Part shown: piece after piece, positions 45,066 to 52,974 of the stretch | How the letters are laid out: each line of letters opens with the position of its first letter | How positions within the stretch are numbered: position 1 is the first letter of the stretch | Assembly (NCBI RefSeq): GCF_028823635.1 | Contig: NZ_JAPEHU010000004.1 | Coordinates: 62,001-126,000 of the forward strand | Direction: 5' to 3' | Source of the DNA: Demequina sp. B12 | GTDB taxonomy: Bacteria; Actinomycetota; Actinomycetes; Actinomycetales; Demequinaceae | DNA: 64,000 bases | Made by a program: the position numbers and the translations under genes | Notes under the pieces: model-generated | Databases searched by the model: none | Seen by the model: the letters and a program-made list of their open reading frames with translations, nothing else | Told to the model about the DNA's origin: nothing

Positions 45066-45138
45066 GCGCCTGTAGCTCAGGGGATAGAGCACCGCTCTCC
45101 TAAAGCGGGTGTCGGCAGTTCGAATCTGCCCAGGCGCA
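45066..45138 (+). tRNA. tRNA-Arg (anticodon CCU)
   Basis: 73-nt cloverleaf. Acceptor GCGCCTG/CAGGCGC, D arm AGCTCAGGGGATAGAGC, anticodon stem CCGCT/AGCGG with loop CTCCTAA giving CCT (45099-45101), T arm GGCAGTTCGAATCTGCC, discriminator A. Reads AGG. CCA is not encoded. TACCCT at 45046-45051 is the likely -10. Confidence 0.95.
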
Positions 45139-45204
45139 CTCCACCGGCCCTGAGACTCTGTAGTGTGGCGATGTCGACTTACCGCGAGTCTTTTAGGGGG
45201 ACCC

Positions 45205-45759
45205 ATGTTGATCAGTCATCACCGCACCGCCGCCATTGTGGGCTTGGCCGTCCTGACGCTCGGCGTCGCGGGCTGCTCGTCCGACGCTGACGACGCTGCA
45301 CCCACCACCGAGTCCACGGTGGAGTCCACGGCCACGGCAGGGGAATCCACCGCTGAGACCACGGAAGAGTCAACTGACTCCGCCGACAGTGGTGCAGGCT
45401 CGTCTGACAGTGACGCTGCAGCATCGTCCAGTGAAGCGCTTGACGAGTTCGTAGCGACGTTGCAGGAGAACGCCGACACGATGCTTGCGGGCACAGAGGA
45501 CGTGTACCTCGACTTCGCTATTGAGGCGACTCACCCCGGCACGGTCGAGTACATCTACACCTTTGCCGACGAGGTTGACCCTGCGGTTGCTGCCGACGGT
45601 TTCGAGTCCACTTTGGAGACCTTCCAGGAACTCACGGACTCGGCGGCGTTCCCTGAGATGGAGGCCTTTGGCATCACCGAAGACCCCCGCATCATTTATA
45701 CGTACCTCAACCCTGACGGCTCCGAGGTGTGGACCCACGAGTTCGTTCCATCGAGCTAG
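45205..45759 (+). CDS. Secreted lipoprotein of unknown function
   Basis: About 184 residues. Signal peptide TAAIVGLAVLTLGVAGC with lipobox VAGC, a Thr/Ser/Glu/Ala-rich linker (about 30-75), and a small C-terminal domain (LDEFVATLQENADTMLAGTEDVYLDFAIEATHPGTVEYIYTFAD). It resembles the DUF4854-type lipoproteins seen in Gram-positive bacteria, but I cannot confirm this. AGGGGG is 6 nt before ATG 45205. Located after tRNA-Arg and before repeat element C. Confidence 0.82.
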   Translation: MLISHHRTAAIVGLAVLTLGVAGCSSDADDAAPTTESTVESTATAGESTAETTEESTDSADSGAGSSDSDAAASSSEALDEFVATLQENADTMLAGTEDVYLDFAIEATHPGTVEYIYTFADEVDPAVAADGFESTLETFQELTDSAAFPEMEAFGITEDPRIIYTYLNPDGSEVWTHEFVPSS

Positions 45760-45869: not shown

Positions 45870-45925
45870 CAGATGGCTCCATTCGGTTGTTTTAGTGAAC
45901 TAAGACAACCAAATGGAGCCATTTG
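45870..45925. repeat. 56-bp palindromic intergenic element, complete copy C
   Basis: Outer arms CAGATGGCTCCATTCG (45870-45885, two changes from consensus) and CAAATGGAGCCATTTG (45910-45925). Inner hairpin GGTTGTTTTAGT-GA-ACTAAGACAACC. The whole element is one long inverted repeat; each outer arm is itself palindromic. It lies 60 bp before the helicase-like gene. Confidence 0.85.
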
Positions 45926-45985
45926 ACGGTTCTGGGAGCGGCGTGGTGGTCCACCCTGAGCCGTGGTCCTAGGTACCGTAGGACA

Positions 45986-48900
45986 GTGGTGGACTTCATC
46001 GGGCGCTCCCTAGTCGCGGACGCACTTCAAGAGTGGCGAGAGCAACTCCAAGCGCGCGCGACTGTGTCCCCGCTGCGAGACCTGGTCGCCACCCAGGCGG
46101 ACCTCATCGACCTGCGCCACTCCCACCCCTCAGGCCTTGCGCAACTGTTCGCGGCACGCCCCACCGCGTTGACCTCGCTGGTCCGCGAAGAACAAGCGGT
46201 CGAAGGCGCGTTGACCAAGGGCCGCGCCATCATCGACGAAGCTGAACGAGTCAAGGCCGCGACCGGCGCCTGGACAGCCGCGCTCGCTGTGGGCACCGCA
46301 TGCTGGCGCGAAGCCAGTCACGACGTTGAGATGCCGATCCTGTTGCGCGCCGTGGAACTGGACCGGCATCGCGAACGTGACCTGCACATCACGCTGCGCA
46401 ACGAGATCTGGATCAACCCCGTGATCGTGTCCCTCCTGCGTGAGCGGGCCGCGCAAGCCGGCTGGGAGAACCCGCCGGCGCTGCCGCAGATCACCCCGGG
46501 ACGCGACTTTGACCCACGTCCGCTGTGGGACGCGGTCGGTGACCGCAGCGACCTCCTGGGGGACACACTCGAGGTGCGCAACCGCCTCATCCTGGGCGCC
46601 TACGACGACCCCGAGCAGCGCCTCCTCGACGACCTTGATGACCTGGACTCCGTCATCGGCGCCTCACCCATCCTGGCCGCTGCCGCAGGGGACCGCGACG
46701 CTCTCGCCACCCTCAGCGAACCGCTCCCGGCTTTCCCCAAGGGCGACCGGGACCCGTTCGGCGAGCGTGGCATCGGCGATCTTGATGACGTGACGTTCGC
46801 GGCGCTGGATCTGATTGCGACCGGTCGAGACGTGTTCCTGGGAACCCCTCCCGGTTCGGATGCGATTGGTATCGCGGCCGCGATCGCTGCCGACGGGGCG
46901 GCCTCCGGCAGGACCGTCGCTGTCGTGGGTGGTCAGGACCGGGCCCTGCACAATGTGGGACGCAAGCTTGCGGAGTGGGGTGCTGGCGACATCGTCGTGG
47001 ACGGTACGGAAGCGGCGTGGAACACCAGTGCGCGTTCGCGGCTTCTGGAAGCGATCACGATGGGCACCCCGCAGGTGGACGATGCCGCTGTTCGCACGTC
47101 GGGTGAGGCGCTGGTGCGTGCCCGTGCCGACTTGCACCGTCGCTTCGATGCCCTGCACCGGACGTACCGTCCGTGGGGCGTGAGCGCCTTCGAGTCGGTC
47201 CAGGCCATTGTGCGGATCACGACCGCTGACCCGGCGCCGCAGACGTCGACGCGGTTGGGGGCCGATGCTGGCGCCATCGTCGCGGATCATGGTTTCGCTT
47301 CCGTGTCCGCGGCAATCGCACGGGCGTTGGCACCCGAGGACGCCGACGAGGCGGCTGTCGCGAAGCAGGCCGATGCTGCCGCCGCGGTGACACGCGATGA
47401 CGACACGGAGCCGTGGTGGTCAGGGCACGCTGAGGAAAGTGAGGGCGCGCGTCTCGATGAGGCGCTTGCGACTTTCTTGGGCCGTTCCGTTCCCAAGCTG
47501 CGTTCTGAGGCAGCGATCGCTGCCCACGAGACCGGTATTGACGAGGCGAACTCGTTGGCGGTGTGGGCTGATCAGGTGCAGATGTTCGCTGACCTGCGCA
47601 GCATCCTTGAGACATTTTCGCCGGCTGTGTTCCACCGTTCGCTTCACGACCTGGTGGCGGCATCCGCGCCGCACAGTTCACCCAAGTATGTGGACATTCC
47701 GCGGCGGGACCGCCGTGCCTTGATGCGTCGCGCGGTGGAGTTGCTGCGCCCGGGTCGCGGCAAGGAGCACATCCACGAAGACCTGGTGAAGGCTCACGAT
47801 CTTGCACTGCGGTGGCGGTCCCACTGTTCCGCTGGCGGCTGGCCCGTGGTTCCTGACGACTACGACATTTTCATCGACCGCATCGAAAAGGCGCAGGCGG
47901 AGTGGGACACCATCGCTGACGTGGTTGCGGCCGTCGCCGATGTTGATGACCTCGCCACGCATTCGTGGGAGGAACTGGTCGAGACGCTTGATCGTCTCGC
48001 GCTGGGCGTGCCCGGTTCGCTTGAGTCGTCCGATGTCGACGACCTCGACATTGATGTCGACAGCGGCGGGTTTGCCGCGTTGGTCGCTGACTTGCGTGCG
48101 CGTGATGCGTCGGGTGTGCAGATTCGCCGCGACTTGGAGTTCGCCTGGTGGGCTGCCGCGTTTGACAGCATCGTGATGGCGGACCCCACGTTGACGGAGT
48201 ACGGCGCCATCGGTGCTGCTGTCGAGGAGTTCCGTAAGCGAGATCTGGATTTCTCTGCTGCGCGGGTGGGTCCGCTGATGCGGGCCGCTGCGGAGCGGCG
48301 TCGGAGTGCGATTGCGCGCCACCCTGATATGGCACGTGACCTGTTTGCCGCCCTCGTGGAGGGCAAGGATGCCTCGTACAAGGAGTTGTGGCGCGACTTT
48401 GCGCCGTTGGTGACGTCGTTGCGTCCCGTGGTGTTGGCGAAGGCCGAGCAGGTCTCGCACCTGGCGCCGTCTTCGCTGTCCATTGATGTGGCAGTGGTGG
48501 TGGCGGGTGAATCCCTCGCTTTGGCCGAGTTGGTGCCCACGCTCGCCCGCGCCAAGCAGGTTGTGGTGTTGGGCGACGCGCACGCGGCAACCCGGTCCGC
48601 GATCGCGGCGCTCGCGACGCTGTTGCCGCAGGTCACGTTGCATGCCATGGCTCAGCCGCGCGATCCCCGTGTCAGCACGGTGTTGAGCGAGATTGCGTAC
48701 GGGCGTGCCTTGCCCACCCAGCCTGCGGCGCACGGCGCCGGTACGTTGCGCGTGGAGTGGGTCACCGCTTCCGGACAAGTAGCCGATGCTGCAGGCGAGC
48801 AGCCTGGCGCCTCCACCTCCGCTGCGGAGGTCAGGGCGGTGGCCGCGTACGTCGAGCAGCGGATGGCGGCGGGCAAGCACCGCAGCCTTGCGATCGTCAC

Positions 48901-50206
48901 GGGATCTGTGGTGCATGCCGAGGCGGTGCGTGCGGAACTCGAGGCGCGTTCCGCGAAGCTGTCCGCTGCCGTAGAGATTGAGCCGTTGGGTGAAGTCGCG
49001 GGGATGGCCGCACACGAAGTTGTGGTGTCGTTGGGCTACGCCCGCGACGAGGACGGCAACCTGCCTCCGCATCTGGGCGCGTTGTCCGAGCCGTGGGGTC
49101 GCCAGGCCGTGGTCCAGGCTCTGGTGGCTTCGCGTGAGGACGTCACGATCTTCTCGACGCTGAGCGTGGACGACCTAGGGGAGTGCGGTGCTTCCGCCGC
49201 CAGTGGCGTGGAGGACTTCCGTGAGTTGCTGCGGGTCTCCGCGTCAGCTCCTGTGGCGCCGGAACGTCCAGAGCCCGCCCCCAGTGACTGGTTGTTGGCC
49301 GATGTTGCGCAGCGTTTGCGCCACGAGGGCTACAAGGTGCGTGTGCGCTACGGCAAAGCCACTGACGCTATCCCCATGGTGGTAGCGGGGCCACACGAGC
49401 GTGACTACAGCGTGGCGATCGTGACAGACGAGGCTTCCAGCGCGGGGTCAGTGTCGTTGCGTGACCGGGTCCGGTGGCAGCGCTCTCAACTGGAGCGACT
49501 GGGTTGGACCGTGGTGCCGTTGTGGACCCTCGACGTGTTTATGGACCCCGACTCCGCGGCCGCCCAGGTCCGTGCAGCATTGCCGGAGAACGACCCCAGC
49601 CCGCAAGTCGAACAGGGAAGCCTGGACCTTGACCTGCCAGAGCCACCGGTGGACTACCCGGAGGTGGAGCCCGAAGCAGTGCCACAGCGGCCAGAACCAG
49701 AACCGATGACCTTGGGACTGAGCACCATGATGGTGGAGTCCGCGATTGATGCGGCTTCTGTGCCCTTCGACTTTGAGGCTGAGGTGGAGACCGTGCAGGA
49801 GCAGGACGAGGCCGGCGAGGTCGGCGAGGTCGGCGAAGCCGGTGAAGTCGATCAGAACGTAGAACCGGATGCCGATGCGGCCGCGGTTGACGACGGCGAG
49901 CCAGAGGACTCCGAAGGAGACGCAGACGGAGAGGCGGATCCAGAATCCGACCCTGACGCCGGAGCTGAGGATGTCGAGACTGAGGACTTCGATACCGAGG
50001 ACGTCGAAACTGAGGACGCCGATGACCCGCAGCCTGCCAAGCCGGAGCCAGTGGTGAAGCCCACGAGCGCATCGGCCCGTGCCGCCGGTGCTGACCGACC
50101 GCTGATTCCTACGCGTGCGTGGGAAGACGAAGACGCCGGTTGGGGTGGGGGCAGTTCAGGGTCGCGTGATGACGACATCCTGCGGGAGAAGCCACCGCAC
50201 TGGTAA
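45986..50206 (+). CDS. Very large helicase-like protein with eroded ATPase and nuclease motifs
   Basis: About 1,406 residues, intact frame. The layout resembles large SF1 helicase-nuclease fusions (DUF4011/AAA_11-AAA_12 plus a C-terminal Vsr/DUF559-like domain). But the Walker A position reads GTPPGSDAIG (286-295, Lys replaced by Ala). The Walker B/DEAS position reads VAVVVAGES (835-843, no Asp-Glu). Motif III GDxxQL reads GDAHAA. Motif VI NVAxTRAR reads VQALVASRE. The nuclease-like part (about 1090-1190: DWLLADVAQRLRHEGY to RSQLERLGWTVVPLWTLDVF) lacks the catalytic acids. The last 200 residues are acidic tandem repeats. TACCGT lies 6 nt before GTG 45986. Probably a pseudo-enzyme with a structural or regulatory role; function unknown. 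Confidence 0.75.
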   Translation: MVDFIGRSLVADALQEWREQLQARATVSPLRDLVATQADLIDLRHSHPSGLAQLFAARPTALTSLVREEQAVEGALTKGRAIIDEAERVKAATGAWTAALAVGTACWREASHDVEMPILLRAVELDRHRERDLHITLRNEIWINPVIVSLLRERAAQAGWENPPALPQITPGRDFDPRPLWDAVGDRSDLLGDTLEVRNRLILGAYDDPEQRLLDDLDDLDSVIGASPILAAAAGDRDALATLSEPLPAFPKGDRDPFGERGIGDLDDVTFAALDLIATGRDVFLGTPPGSDAIGIAAAIAADGAASGRTVAVVGGQDRALHNVGRKLAEWGAGDIVVDGTEAAWNTSARSRLLEAITMGTPQVDDAAVRTSGEALVRARADLHRRFDALHRTYRPWGVSAFESVQAIVRITTADPAPQTSTRLGADAGAIVADHGFASVSAAIARALAPEDADEAAVAKQADAAAAVTRDDDTEPWWSGHAEESEGARLDEALATFLGRSVPKLRSEAAIAAHETGIDEANSLAVWADQVQMFADLRSILETFSPAVFHRSLHDLVAASAPHSSPKYVDIPRRDRRALMRRAVELLRPGRGKEHIHEDLVKAHDLALRWRSHCSAGGWPVVPDDYDIFIDRIEKAQAEWDTIADVVAAVADVDDLATHSWEELVETLDRLALGVPGSLESSDVDDLDIDVDSGGFAALVADLRARDASGVQIRRDLEFAWWAAAFDSIVMADPTLTEYGAIGAAVEEFRKRDLDFSAARVGPLMRAAAERRRSAIARHPDMARDLFAALVEGKDASYKELWRDFAPLVTSLRPVVLAKAEQVSHLAPSSLSIDVAVVVAGESLALAELVPTLARAKQVVVLGDAHAATRSAIAALATLLPQVTLHAMAQPRDPRVSTVLSEIAYGRALPTQPAAHGAGTLRVEWVTASGQVADAAGEQPGASTSAAEVRAVAAYVEQRMAAGKHRSLAIVTGSVVHAEAVRAELEARSAKLSAAVEIEPLGEVAGMAAHEVVVSLGYARDEDGNLPPHLGALSEPWGRQAVVQALVASREDVTIFSTLSVDDLGECGASAASGVEDFRELLRVSASAPVAPERPEPAPSDWLLADVAQRLRHEGYKVRVRYGKATDAIPMVVAGPHERDYSVAIVTDEASSAGSVSLRDRVRWQRSQLERLGWTVVPLWTLDVFMDPDSAAAQVRAALPENDPSPQVEQGSLDLDLPEPPVDYPEVEPEAVPQRPEPEPMTLGLSTMMVESAIDAASVPFDFEAEVETVQEQDEAGEVGEVGEAGEVDQNVEPDADAAAVDDGEPEDSEGDADGEADPESDPDAGAEDVETEDFDTEDVETEDADDPQPAKPEPVVKPTSASARAAGADRPLIPTRAWEDEDAGWGGGSSGSRDDDILREKPPHW

Positions 50207-50220
50207 ACGGTGGCCGCGCG

Positions 50221-50257
50221 TCCGGTGAGGACTTGGACTGTCCGGTCAGGACTTGGA
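50221..50257. repeat. Direct repeat at the 3' end of the FmdB-like gene
   Basis: Two 17-bp copies (50221-50237 and 50241-50257) differ at one base, period 20. The second covers the last codons and stop of the FmdB-like gene, the first lies just past it, so the gene end appears duplicated. Confidence 0.6.
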
Positions 50258-50443
50258 TTTGGCGGCGGCCCGCGAGTCCGTCCGGTAGAAGCCTGAACCC
50301 TTGAACGTCACACCCACGTTGCCGAACACGCGGCGGAGCGATCCAGAGCAGGCGGGGCAGGTGACGAGCGCGTCGTCGTGAATCGACTGCACCTCGTCAA
50401 AGCGGTGGTCGCAGTCGCGACAGGCATACGAGTACGTGGGCAT
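50246..50443 (-). CDS. FmdB-family zinc-ribbon protein
   Basis: 65 residues. PTYSYACRDCDHRFDEVQSIHDDALVTCPACSGSLRRVFGNVGVTFKGSGFYRTD has the two CxxC knuckles (C8/C11 and C29/C32 approximately) of the FmdB regulatory-protein family. Small zinc-binding protein, often linked to 5-FTHF cyclo-ligase in actinobacteria, as here (10 bp downstream of it on the same strand). Molecular role not established. Confidence 0.93.
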   Translation of the reverse strand: MPTYSYACRDCDHRFDEVQSIHDDALVTCPACSGSLRRVFGNVGVTFKGSGFYRTDSRAAAKSKS

Positions 50444-50453
50444 GGGCCGTATT

Positions 50454-51077
50454 CTACGCGGGCAACGAGGTGATCCCTTGTGGCGTGATGACGGCGTTCA
50501 CGGGGCGGTCGTGAGACTCGCGCGGCAAATGGGTGCCGTCCACATGGAACTCCGAGGTAAACGTCAACGCCACCACGGGCGCTTCCGGACGTGCTTGGGC
50601 CAGGGCACGGTCGTACCAGCCGCCACCTTGGCCCAAGCGCGTGCCGTACTGATCGACGGCAAGCGCGGGCACCACCACGACATCGGCCTGGGCGAGCGCC
50701 TCACTGGGCAGGAACGTGCCGGACGGCTCCGGAGGGCGGCCCGGAGCGCGTTCTACTAGGTCGTCGGAACTGACGTAGACACCCCATCCGCGCTGAAGTC
50801 CGTCACCCAGGCACGGCACCAGGACGGTGATGTCACGTTCGTGGAGGGCCTCGATCAGGGGCAAGGTTCCCGGCTCGTGGGGCCGTGAGGCGTAGACAGA
50901 GACACAGCTTGCTGCCTGAATGGAGGGCAGTTGGAGGACCTGATCGCGGAGTTGGAGCGCGAGTTCCTCATTGCGACGCACGGAGCGGTGGAGCCTTGCC
51001 TTCCGTACCGACGCCCGCAAGTGCGCTTTGGCGTCCTCAGGAGCTTCGACGTGACTATGGCTCGGCTGCGAGGTCAT
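50454..51077 (-). CDS. 5-formyltetrahydrofolate cyclo-ligase
   Basis: About 207 residues. AHLRASVRKARLHRS near the N-terminus, VSVYASRPHEPGTLPLIEAL, VLVPCLGDGLQRGWGVYV and the ATP/folate loop DVVVVPALAVDQYGTRLGQGGGWYDRAL are the family signature (conserved GTRLGQGGGYYDR). It converts 5-formyl-THF to 5,10-methenyl-THF using ATP. ATG 51077 (MTSQPSH) is preferred; ATG 51086 is also possible, and the longer frame to 51185 is not conserved. Confidence 0.94.
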   Translation of the reverse strand: MTSQPSHSHVEAPEDAKAHLRASVRKARLHRSVRRNEELALQLRDQVLQLPSIQAASCVSVYASRPHEPGTLPLIEALHERDITVLVPCLGDGLQRGWGVYVSSDDLVERAPGRPPEPSGTFLPSEALAQADVVVVPALAVDQYGTRLGQGGGWYDRALAQARPEAPVVALTFTSEFHVDGTHLPRESHDRPVNAVITPQGITSLPA

Positions 51078-51178
51078 GCCCACCATTGTGTCAGGTTTTC
51101 GTAAACGTTCGGTATCGCCAGCGTCACGCCAACGGCGAACAGCGCGGCCACTTGCTCGGGCAGGCTGGGGGCGCAACA

Positions 51179-52393
51179 ATGCCAATCGTGACTGTCAGAA
51201 GCCTCACCGACCATAAGCGTGCGGTGAGTGCTGCGCTCGCACGCAACCCTGCTCTCGATGTGTTGATCGCCGACGCGGTGGGCGGCACCCTCGCCGAGGA
51301 CATCATCGCCCCACGCGACCTACCCGCCGTTCCCGTGGCCGCATGTGACGGCTATGCGGTGGCCAGTGCGGATGTGCAGAGCGAGTCCACCACCCTCGTG
51401 GTCTCCCACGACGTGAGTTTCGATGATCGATCACCTCGCACCCACGTCCCTGGAACAGCCGCCCGGGTGCCGTCGGGCGCGCCGCTGCCGCGGGGAGCCG
51501 ATGCTGTGGTGCCGTCCTCGCGGACGGACCTGGGGGTGGCGCGCGTCGCGATCTCTGGTGCGGTCGACAGCGGCCAGTACGTGACGGGCGCAGGCGCGTA
51601 TGTGCGCGCAGGAACCGTGGTCGTCGACGCGGGCACGCAGTTGGGGCCGCGCCAAGTGGGGGTGGCGGCAGCATTGGGTCGTCCCCGCCTCACGGTGCAT
51701 CCCGTGCCGCGCGTGGTGATCCTTTCCGTGGGTGATGAGCTCATTGATCCGGGCGCTCGCCGGCCGGGCGGCGGTGTTCCGGATGCGAACAGTCACGTGT
51801 TGGCGGGCCTGGTGAGGGAAGCCGGTGCACAGGCGTTCCGGGTGGGACCGGTGCCGGATGAACCCTTGGCGCTACGCCGTGCGATCGAGGATCAGTTGGT
51901 CCGTGCCGACGTGCTCCTCACCACAGGTGGATTGTCGGGCGGCCCCCGTGACACCGTGCCGCAGGTCATGCAGCGCCTGGGCTCGTTCGAGTTGGTTGAC
52001 GTCGCGCTCTCTCCCGGTGGCCGCCAAGGGTTGGGAGCCATCGACATGGGTGACCGTCACATTCCCGTGGTGTCGCTGTCGGGCACCCCCGCAGCAGCCG
52101 TGGTCGGGTTTGAGGCATGCGTGTGGCCCGCCCTACGGGACATGTGTGGGTACGCGCAACGTGAGCGCGACACCTACATGGCGACCGTGGGGGAGCCGTG
52201 GACCGCGACCGAAGGTGCCGTGACCGCCACTCCCGTACGCATCACCCGTCACGACGGGGGACGCATCGCGGAGGCGCTCGGCGACGGGTCTCTCACCCTC
52301 GATGCGCTCGCCCAGGCCGACGCCCTCGCGTGGACCGGACCAGAAACCGGCCATGTCGAGACCGGCATGCGCATCCACTGTTCTCGCTGGTAA
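51179..52393 (+). CDS. glp: Gephyrin-like MoeA-family protein (Glp)
   Basis: About 404 residues with MoeA domain order. Domain III/I start DLPAVPVAACDGYAVASAD (usual MDGYA reads CDGYA), middle GARRPGGGVPDANSHVLAGLVREAG (usual YDSNS reads PDANS), the MPT-binding domain TTGGLSGGPRDTVPQVM (usual TSGGVSVGDYD) and SLSGTPAAAVVGFEACVWPAL. These changes and the neighbours rimJ-like and sepX-like identify the actinobacterial Glp paralog. In Corynebacterium, Glp binds FtsZ and a membrane receptor (GlpR/SepX) in cell division rather than serving cofactor synthesis. I infer the same here. No other moa/moe gene is in the window. Confidence 0.8.
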   Translation: MPIVTVRSLTDHKRAVSAALARNPALDVLIADAVGGTLAEDIIAPRDLPAVPVAACDGYAVASADVQSESTTLVVSHDVSFDDRSPRTHVPGTAARVPSGAPLPRGADAVVPSSRTDLGVARVAISGAVDSGQYVTGAGAYVRAGTVVVDAGTQLGPRQVGVAAALGRPRLTVHPVPRVVILSVGDELIDPGARRPGGGVPDANSHVLAGLVREAGAQAFRVGPVPDEPLALRRAIEDQLVRADVLLTTGGLSGGPRDTVPQVMQRLGSFELVDVALSPGGRQGLGAIDMGDRHIPVVSLSGTPAAAVVGFEACVWPALRDMCGYAQRERDTYMATVGEPWTATEGAVTATPVRITRHDGGRIAEALGDGSLTLDALAQADALAWTGPETGHVETGMRIHCSRW

Positions 52394-52398
52394 GACCG

Positions 52399-52974
52399 AT
52401 GCGACCACAGACACTGACGCGGGGGCCCCTGGAAGTTCGGCCGCTGTCACGCGGAGACGAACTCGACTGGATCGACATCCGCCAGCGCAACCGGCGCTGG
52501 CTCCAGCCGTGGGAGGCGACCACCCCTCCCGGTAGTGCCCCAGCATCGGCTTCCTTCGCCACGATCGTGCGCCGGGACCGCAAACAATGGCGCAACGACA
52601 CGGGGTACCCCGCGGTCGCCACCTTCGATGGTGATTTGGTGGCGAGGGTGTCGATCTATGGCATCCAGTGGGGCGCTGCGCGGTGGGGGTCGCTCGGATA
52701 TTGGATCGACGAAGGGCATGCGGGGCGGGGCATCGTCCCCACGGCGGTCGCGATGCTGTCATCGATGGCCTTCGACCGTGGGCTTCACCGGCTCGAAATT
52801 GCGGTGCGTCCCGAGAACGAACGATCTGTTGCTGTCGCCCGCAAACTGGGGTTCGCCGAGGAAGGAATGCGGCGCTCCTATCTGTTCATCGACGGGCAGT
52901 GGCGGGACCACCTGATCTTTGCTCGGACTCAAGACCAGCCCCGGGTGGGCCGATATTGGGGGCAAGGCCACTGA
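52399..52974 (+). CDS. GNAT-family N-acetyltransferase (RimJ-like)
   Basis: About 191 residues. RPLSRGDELDWIDIRQRNRRWLQPWEATTPPG is the RimJ/RimL-type opening. The acetyl-CoA loop is GYWIDEGHAGRGIVPTAVAMLSSMAF, followed by LHRLEIAVRPENERSVAVARKLGFAEEGMRRSYLFIDGQWRDHLIFA. It acetylates N-termini, possibly of ribosomal protein. It sits 5 bp after glp, its conserved neighbour in actinobacteria. Confidence 0.92.
   Translation: MRPQTLTRGPLEVRPLSRGDELDWIDIRQRNRRWLQPWEATTPPGSAPASASFATIVRRDRKQWRNDTGYPAVATFDGDLVARVSIYGIQWGAARWGSLGYWIDEGHAGRGIVPTAVAMLSSMAFDRGLHRLEIAVRPENERSVAVARKLGFAEEGMRRSYLFIDGQWRDHLIFARTQDQPRVGRYWGQGH

Follow-up and report, generated by a model that had tools for sequence, protein, structure and literature searches.

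What keeps a giant helicase-nuclease-like frame open once the residues for both chemistries have gone? The question is raised by a Demequina gene in the window, which here means the whole 64,000-nucleotide stretch of DNA that was analysed. The first-pass annotation had read the gene as an intact frame of about 1.4 kilo-residues with the architecture of SF1 helicase-nuclease fusions and with every catalytic residue replaced, and it had proposed a structural, decoy or regulatory function; its observation is partly confirmed and its interpretation partly supported by our analysis. The frame is indeed intact. A single frame is open from TTG 45923 to 50206 (1427 aa), and the start GTG 45986, from which the orthologs align, was chosen from the ortholog alignment to give a protein of 1406 aa. 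Its features and neighbours are collected in Table 1, where q marks residue positions in the protein.

Table 1. Features of the gene and of its conserved neighbours, in window coordinates.
Feature	Coordinates	Strand	Basis or remark
CDS, putative pseudo-helicase-nuclease fused to PPHW tail, 1406 aa	45986..50206	+	start and end common to 38 aligned Demequina rows
Weak DUF4011-like N-terminal segment	46211..46426	+	16.4 bits vs cut-off 22.2, E 0.0094
Former Walker A, FLGTPPGSDAIG, q284-295, lysine lost	46835..46870	+	ortholog alignment
Former motif II, DVAVVVAGESLALAE, q834-848, Asp-Glu lost, ESLA newly fixed in genus	48485..48529	+	ortholog alignment
Former motif III, VVVLGDAHAATRSA, q859-872, Gln lost, Asp kept	48560..48601	+	ortholog alignment
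Former motif VI, AVVQALVASR, q1041-1050	49106..49135	+	ortholog alignment
MTES_1575 Vsr-type putative pseudo-nuclease domain, q1106-1199	49301..49582	+	Pfam match above cut-off
Acidic low-complexity linker, q1201-1360	49586..50065	+	low model confidence
Conserved C-terminal tail, RPLIPTRAWEDEDAGWGGGSSGSRDDDILREKPPHW, q1371-1406	50096..50203	+	homologous to separate small protein elsewhere
FmdB-type zinc ribbon protein, conserved neighbour	50246..50443	-	
5-formyltetrahydrofolate cyclo-ligase (5-FCL), conserved neighbour	50454..51185	-	
MoeA-type molybdotransferase, conserved neighbour	51173..52393	+	frame open from 50885
GNAT acetyltransferase, RimJ-like, conserved neighbour	52393..52974	+	

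The proposed architecture also stands. MTES_1575 passes its Pfam cut-off in the Demequina protein (55.5 vs 38.2 bits), and the predicted helicase part resembles Aquarius, Upf1, Sen1, Ighmbp2 and Dna2. The other profiles that the annotation had named for checking fared less well, with DUF4011 below its Pfam cut-off (Table 1) and neither AAA_11 nor AAA_12 called in the Pfam profile search of this protein. All three were above cut-off in 3 scanned orthologs with intact motifs, used as a control, and the missing calls therefore reflect real divergence. When the AF2 model (mean pLDDT 87.9, pTM 0.78) was compared with known folds, as had also been suggested, SF1B helicases headed the search: Foldseek gave Aquarius (E 7.5e-10), then Upf1, Ighmbp2 and Dna2, and structure matches were obtained to 9l5t_Y (Z 16.1, rmsd 5.4 over 513 residues) and to Upf1 6ej5 (Z 15.6), with low whole-chain TM-scores of at most 0.29 by query. 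A viral fold library returned helicases only, and a sequence search of solved structures returned one unrelated match (E 0.048). The predicted fold is that of a Upf1/Dna2-like SF1B helicase. The nuclease assignment comes from the Pfam sequence match, the fold searches having covered residues 2-1093.

When compared with orthologs that keep the motifs, the Walker A lysine is replaced by A at q293 and the motif II DE by VA at q839-840. Neither that lysine nor a D or E at the motif II positions is present in any of the 38 aligned Demequina rows (0/38 for both), and the lysine position varies freely among them (A 15, P 14, S 4, V 3, I 1, T 1). Q is also replaced by A in motif III (q867) and in motif V (q1005), as is the first R of motif VI (q1048). 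In the nuclease domain D reads P at q1130 and E reads V at q1146, leaving P...VxD for the catalytic D...ExD. The claim that every catalytic residue is replaced holds for the Walker A Lys, the motif II DE, the motif III Gln, the first motif VI Arg and the nuclease D and E. On the other hand, the window protein retains the second motif VI Arg (q1050), being one of 15/38 Demequina rows that do so, and the last nuclease acid, D1148, is D in 38/38 of the Demequina rows and in 69/69 tree rows, so that "all replaced" is slightly too strong. All 38 Demequina rows also retain the motif III Asp (D864). Residues flanking the former active sites are newly fixed in the ortholog comparison (PPG.D, ESLA, ATRS, VTDE): PPG and a new Asp in the old P-loop in 37-38/38 Demequina rows, and E842 in former motif II. 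From the alignment, the catalytic regions look remodelled. The 38 rows are de-duplicated intact frames, window included; the broken or cut copies L058/L095, L063, L094 and L064/L096/L097 were left out, as was L061, an open frame cut by a contig end. At Walker A, three of these (L058, L061, L063) have PPGAD and likewise no K.

The gene is widespread in its order, with a profile match in 391/396 genomes and in 377/379 of the good ones, counted as matches at E 1e-20 and not as individually confirmed orthologs. For closer comparison 83 orthologs were drawn by hand, consisting of 20 from a search for relatives, 40 of the best-scoring rows in the profile scan, 14 more from the order and 9 from other orders. 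The fragments L076, L086 and L087 (hence families f12 and f16) and L207 are not among the 83, nor are the ProA-like giants L088, L089 and L184-L187. In the hand-drawn set of 74 other in-order orthologs, 65 do not have the Walker A lysine, while 9 keep it together with both motif II acids; the latter belong to families f5 and f17 (G040, G058, G052, G191, G237, G296, G347, G378 and G404). These intact orthologs are like the window gene in ortholog group, length class and, where read, neighbourhood, and the PPHW small gene is either joined to them or lies immediately downstream. Unlike in the window gene, however, the catalytic motifs are preserved: GPPGTGKS, DEAS, TR[AS]R, the motif III Gln, and all of D, E and D in the nuclease. 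A tree of 69 out of 94 rows contains a 53-row clade (SH-aLRT 99) wholly without the lysine, requires a minimum of 3 changes for this residue, and places the Demequina family on a long stem (1.08). The loss of the lysine is, by this evidence, old, since neither the genus nor the 53-row clade has it. The gene is kept in genomes of 0.8-0.9 Mb. We regard it as a probable core gene of the order, vertically inherited and derived from a DUF4011/MTES_1575-type SF1B helicase-nuclease, and its product as a putative pseudoenzyme, since orthologs with active motifs exist, the catalytic residues are lost and the frame is conserved; its inactivity is read from the residues. A core gene of about 1400 residues would then persist across a whole order without helicase and nuclease residues in most of the sampled families. 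Within one ortholog group an evolutionary series runs from canonical members to fully remodelled ones, and the role of a non-unwinding helicase is therefore directly testable.

Selection on the body was estimated from pairs of orthologs. In the five closest pairs the core has a dN/dS of 0.05-0.11, indicating purifying selection; looser values are found in the 557 pairs with dS < 1.2 (median 0.39, maximum 0.68), where dS is probably near saturation. Taken with the 38 intact genus members and the order-wide presence, this bears out the view that a long frame is maintained without canonical catalytic residues. Its rate of divergence is close to that of MoeA and RimJ (for the gene, median identity to the window over 28 loci of 56.0%, compared to 50.3 and 57.6, respectively), while 5-FCL and FmdB evolve more slowly. 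Frames are broken in two Demequina genomes (L058; G009/L094) whose tested neighbours in the same stretch are intact, by either sequencing error or true loss. The neighbours of a third broken copy, L063, are likewise broken, suggesting a fault of its assembly.

For the most part the gene is found in a single stable neighbourhood, made up of FmdB, 5-FCL, MoeA and the GNAT acetyltransferase that we take to be RimJ. No helicase gene was found among the conserved neighbours, those recognised being these four and NlpC/P60. A mobile or phage origin was considered and rejected: out of 56 records in the plasmid search, one, from A. oris and 415 kb long, reaches a query coverage of 80% or more and is chromosome-like because its neighbourhood is the same, and the phage search gave 1 weak match.

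The acidic linker (about q1201-1360) and the conserved C-terminal tail (q1371-1406) were absent from the first-pass annotation. The tail comprises the last 36 or so residues and ends ...DDDILREKPPHW; the PPHW end is present in 38/38 Demequina rows, and the tail profile has a single match in this genome, this gene. Its counterpart is a separate small downstream gene beside 47/83 orthologs, with a 4-base frame overlap in 20/47, and is fused in 17/83; at least 9 changes between the two states are needed on the tree. No PPHW gene was seen in the stretch read at 10/83 loci, and the pairing with the body is therefore not universal. Within the class, 85/118 genomes have the small protein, for the most part with no helicase beside it in the genome, and most of the other orders with the small protein lack the body. 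Ending in PPHW or PPHH, it is covered by neither Pfam nor NCBIfam, and we found no literature on it or on this ortholog group in open-access PMC; a tiny protein conserved across the class is thereby exposed. Among the 25 closest pairs, linker dN/dS is 0.19-0.95, whereas the tail remains conserved. AF2 modelling of q258-1406 placed no tail on the body, with low pLDDT in the linker (32-48) and in the last 30 residues (56-59). We think that the tail is the best clue to function.

Orthology, near-universal presence, old lysine loss, selection, retained fold and repeated tail fusion together lead us to read the protein as an ancient, repurposed, non-catalytic scaffold which lost its ATPase and nuclease chemistry long ago and forms one unit with the small protein, and to this we would give about an even chance. 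An SF1B helicase-nuclease ancestor would have lost both chemistries and then been repurposed; the body may still bind nucleic acid or a partner via the old helicase surface without ATP-driven movement; the flexible acidic linker and PPHW tail could offer a conserved partner a short linear motif; and body and small protein would act as one scaffold. RecC and AddB, with dead helicase or nuclease domains reading DNA, serve as our working model. Nearly all sampled members of the order keep the giant, probably as a scaffold tied to the tiny conserved protein. A further possibility, which we hold only tentatively, is that Actinomycetes have in the small PPH[W/H] protein a core component not yet described, with the dead giant as its order-specific, ATP-independent nucleic-acid-binding platform, recruited next to the peptide and fused to it more than once; if true, peptide and platform would make up a new core complex acting in actinobacterial chromosome or RNA biology. 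A structural or regulatory role is what we infer, and nothing points to a decoy.

Several other explanations have to be weighed against the repurposed scaffold. The protein might be a regulatory subunit of some other helicase or nuclease, with an active partner. Precedent comes from the helicase-like domain of AddB and the nuclease-like domain of RecC, as described in the available portions of PMC4824097 and PMC1185551, where dead domains are likewise kept for a non-catalytic job, and the modelled helicase fold is in keeping with it. However, RecC and AddB, which are compared here by analogy, work within complexes that include an active helicase-nuclease, and no helicase gene is among the genes recognised in the conserved neighbourhood. 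We consider a subunit role unlikely. Rather less probable is a passenger body, in which the tail alone is needed and a dead body persists as any frame break would remove the tail. The fused tail is the sole copy of the small protein in this genome, and it is conserved behind a linker that tolerates change. Nevertheless, the 47 orthologs with a separate small gene still keep the body, most lysine-less families included, the core is under purifying selection, and a useless body would shrink, yet the frames stay full-length. We put at the same low level an anti-phage role, by which a core relative of ProA or Hhe would sense or trap phage nucleic acid without catalysis. The best curated sequence match is anti-phage ProA (NF058533; 151.2 bits, E 2.5e-44), a further match is the PADLOC candidate PDC-S37 (8.1e-40), and giant relatives combining an SF1 helicase with a novel Vsr-type REase (MTES_1575) were proposed as defence proteins in the available text of PMC3710099. 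ProA, Hhe (NF042953) and PDC-S37 share with the window protein significant profile matches and the domain order of the common part. Their models have 1797-1903 positions compared to about 1400 residues, however, and the window protein differs in its lost catalytic residues, in being core and vertical, and in scores far under the curated NCBIfam cut-offs (151 vs 1500 bits for ProA; 36.5 vs 2000 for Hhe). The PMC3710099 giants, as far as that text goes, have HEPN, transglutaminase and wHTH domains in addition and were proposed to be active. Defence genes are patchy, whereas this gene is near-universal, mostly in one place per genome, almost absent from phages, vertically inherited and kept in genomes of 0.8-0.9 Mb.

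Non-canonical catalysis, meaning NTP hydrolysis or nucleic acid cutting with relocated residues, could draw on the new P-loop Asp, E842 and D1148. The joint loss of the lysine, the motif II acids, the motif III Gln and the first motif VI Arg, together with the freely varying lysine position, makes it very improbable. Improbable in the extreme is recent decay, the loss of the gene by this copy or the genus, to which the two broken frames with intact neighbours and the long family stem might point. The third broken copy probably reflects its assembly, active-motif orthologs exist but the lysine is gone from the genus and the 53-row clade, and decay of this particular copy is rejected on the 38 intact rows, the order-wide conservation and the purifying selection.

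Further comparisons may be added. Utp25, a yeast helicase relative, is reported as a pseudohelicase in the available part of PMC9539457; unlike the window protein it acts in eukaryotic ribosome assembly, and it is compared here by analogy. The word "helicase" is absent from the available portion of the main text of a Bifidobacterium breve essentiality paper (PMC5514069), which tells nothing either way about this gene. In Actinomyces oris WVU627 (PGE45_RS12785 / PGE45_RS12780) the ortholog has also lost the lysine, but its small protein is a separate gene and not a fusion: after the ortholog come a 104-aa protein with the ending PPHWG, and then MscL, 5-FCL, Glp and a GNAT protein. PGE45_RS12785 is annotated "DNA helicase".

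The frame of the helicase-nuclease relative is unbroken, as the first-pass annotation had stated, and its product matches only once in its own genome, namely itself (see the table of coordinates). Judged from sequence, this protein is shown to be an ancient, selected and canonically dead helicase-nuclease, whose physical linkage to a small conserved peptide recurs. In the Pfam search, the Vsr-type nuclease MTES_1575 was the sole domain above cut-off; AAA_11 and AAA_12 were not above it and the DUF4011 match was weak. In three orthologs that keep the motifs, scanned as a positive control, AAA_11, AAA_12 and DUF4011 were all above cut-off, whereas an f13 ortholog and that of Actinomyces oris gave MTES_1575 alone, the same as the window protein. 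The SF1 helicase-like architecture proposed earlier was recovered when the AlphaFold2 model of residues 1-1200 (57 aligned sequences; mean pLDDT 87.9, pTM 0.78) was overlaid on known structures: the best matches were the SF1B helicases Aquarius (Z 16.1, rmsd 5.4, 513 residues), Sen1 (Z 15.7) and Upf1 (Z 15.6), with Ighmbp2 and Dna2 slightly lower. TM-scores over the whole chain were low, so the predicted similarity is that of a helicase core with large insertions. The MTES_1575 part was identified by sequence, and the fold search barely reached it.

Coordinates of the features discussed
Feature	Record	Position	Strand	Remark
Helicase-nuclease relative	window	45986-50206	+	1406 aa
C-terminal tail	window	50096-50203		last ~36 residues
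tRNA-Arg(CCT), then lipoprotein-like frame	window	45066-45759		directly upstream of the big gene; weak DUF4854 match
A. oris neighbourhood (L263)	NZ_CP116225.1	372028-393180		415-kb record filed as a plasmid

Our genus alignment consisted of 38 intact Demequina rows, including the window, and 20 rows from other families of the order. The Walker A lysine is absent from all 38 Demequina rows (A in 15, P in 14, S in 4, V in 3, I and T in 1 each), as are the motif II acids. A second set comprises 83 non-Demequina orthologs: 74 belong to the order, spread over 18 of its families, and the remaining 9 to other orders of the class. All ten scored residues are kept in 9 of the 74 (2/2 rows of family f5 and 7/9 of f17), and the lysine is missing from the remaining 65. 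Among the nine from other orders, genome G447 retains K and DE, and R replaces K in eight; this R, present in 7/7 rows of family f38 of another order (L175-L181), is a separate change. In the ortholog tree (69 rows, quick method, SH-aLRT support), rows cluster by family except for f3, which is split over two places. Eight of the nine lysine-bearing rows (f17, six; f5, two) fall into one clade (SH-aLRT 99), G447 being the ninth, while a 53-row clade (SH-aLRT 99) has no row with lysine, and at least three changes at this position are required. Parsimony does not separate gain from loss; we take the changes to be losses, a regain of the full set of motifs being implausible. Some catalytic residues were lost stepwise: the first motif VI arginine survives in 21/22 rows from the ten families whose dead copies branch earlier, and in 0/38 Demequina rows. 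The claim that every catalytic motif is eroded therefore holds for the lysine, the motif II acids and this arginine throughout Demequina, but not for the nuclease residue D1148, which is kept in 69/69 tree rows. The erosion itself is real and old.

The gene is nevertheless maintained, as the first-pass annotation had proposed. All 59 relatives searched have at least one match, and the profile matches 391/396 genomes of the order (108/109 genera), or 377/379 when only genomes with at least 90% completeness and no more than 5% contamination are counted; the five genomes without a match are all fragmented, with 170 to 610 contigs. Frames of 1205-1221 aa are retained even in three genomes of 0.8-0.9 Mb. 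For residues 1-1200, dN/dS was 0.05-0.11 in the five closest Demequina pairs and, in the 25 closest, 0.05-0.37; the 557 pairs with dS <1.2 had a median of 0.39 and a maximum of 0.68, with dS there probably near saturation. Counting against retention, the frame is broken in L058 (Demequina sediminis) and in G009 (locus L094) with the tested neighbours intact, and these breaks may be either sequencing errors or real losses. It is also broken in L063 (Demequina litorisediminis), where many other genes of the stretch are split between frames, suggesting that the assembly is rich in errors. Free decay of the former active sites is a less fitting description than remodelling: in Demequina the catalytic positions are variable and adjacent residues are newly fixed in the genus, namely PPG.D (P-loop), ESLA (after motif II), ATRS (after motif III) and VTDE (nuclease), so that the sites look remodelled. 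Median identities to the window, taken across 28 named loci, were 56.0% for the big protein (27 loci measured), 50.3 for MoeA, 57.6 for RimJ, 69.7 for 5-FCL and 74.3 for FmdB; the gene is thus among the faster-changing of its neighbourhood, yet no faster than two metabolic neighbours.

By descent the protein groups with the DUF4011/SF1/MTES_1575 giants reported in PMC3710099. The closest NCBIfam profile is that of the anti-phage giant ProA (E 2.5e-44) and the closest PADLOC profile is PDC-S37 (8.1e-40), with scores far under curated cut-offs. Since the catalytic features of helicases and nucleases are missing and the scores lie under the cut-offs of both ProA and Hhe, we assigned the protein to none of these; it is a pseudoenzyme with an undescribed partner. 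ProA-like giants separate from the core ortholog occur in G003 (L088, 2189 aa) and G041 (L089, 2167 aa), and since these genomes carry both kinds, the two lineages coexist.

Of 18 stretches (~20 kb) taken from other genera of the order, 15 contain at least one of FmdB, 5-FCL, MoeA and RimJ (FmdB: 13); among the three that lack them, one begins at a contig end. In Actinomyces oris WVU627 the order is 'DNA helicase', a 104-aa hypothetical protein, MscL, a SAF-domain protein, 5-FCL, Glp and a GNAT protein. The A. oris plasmid record in the table bears the conserved core neighbourhood, and so may be a piece of chromosome.

After the nuclease domain come a linker, acidic in the window, and the tail RPLIPTRAWEDEDAGWGGGSSGSRDDDILREKPPHW, and the protein ends in PPHW in 38/38 Demequina rows. 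In other families a homologous tail terminates a small separate gene immediately downstream. Scored with a loose pattern, by which the weakest separate cases (e.g. LPPHF in 0.8-0.9 Mb genomes) may be chance, the tail is fused in 17 of the 83 orthologs, separate in 47, not seen in 10 and running into the stretch end in 9. The fused state occurs in families f1, f6, f13, f15, f17 and f18, and at least nine changes between the two states are needed on the tree. With mechanically chosen starts, 20/47 separate genes overlap the big gene by 4 bases at their start. The small protein has PPHW or PPHH at its end and is acidic with a DxGWG motif (the window and L243-L262); no credible family was found in Pfam or NCBIfam, and a literature search for PPHW gave nothing relevant among the matches listed. 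At E 0.01 the tail profile (48 positions) matches 85/118 genomes of the class, nearly always at a single place, although weak matches near the limit may be chance. Outside the order it matches 77/110 genomes, compared with 13/110 for the body (nine being full-length orthologs), and FmdB lies in 15/20 other-order stretches fetched around tail matches, in two of which (L255 and L260) a re-scan gave no convincing tail. The small protein thus seems to predate the helicase and to be spread more widely, within the same neighbourhood.

According to PMC1185551 and PMC4824097, RecC and AddB are examples of dead helicase and nuclease domains being retained to read DNA. Here the body may use its old surfaces to bind nucleic acid or protein, and the PPHW motif would be presented to a partner by the flexible linker. 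In a second AlphaFold2 model the tail was not docked on the body, and a partner outside the body is possible.
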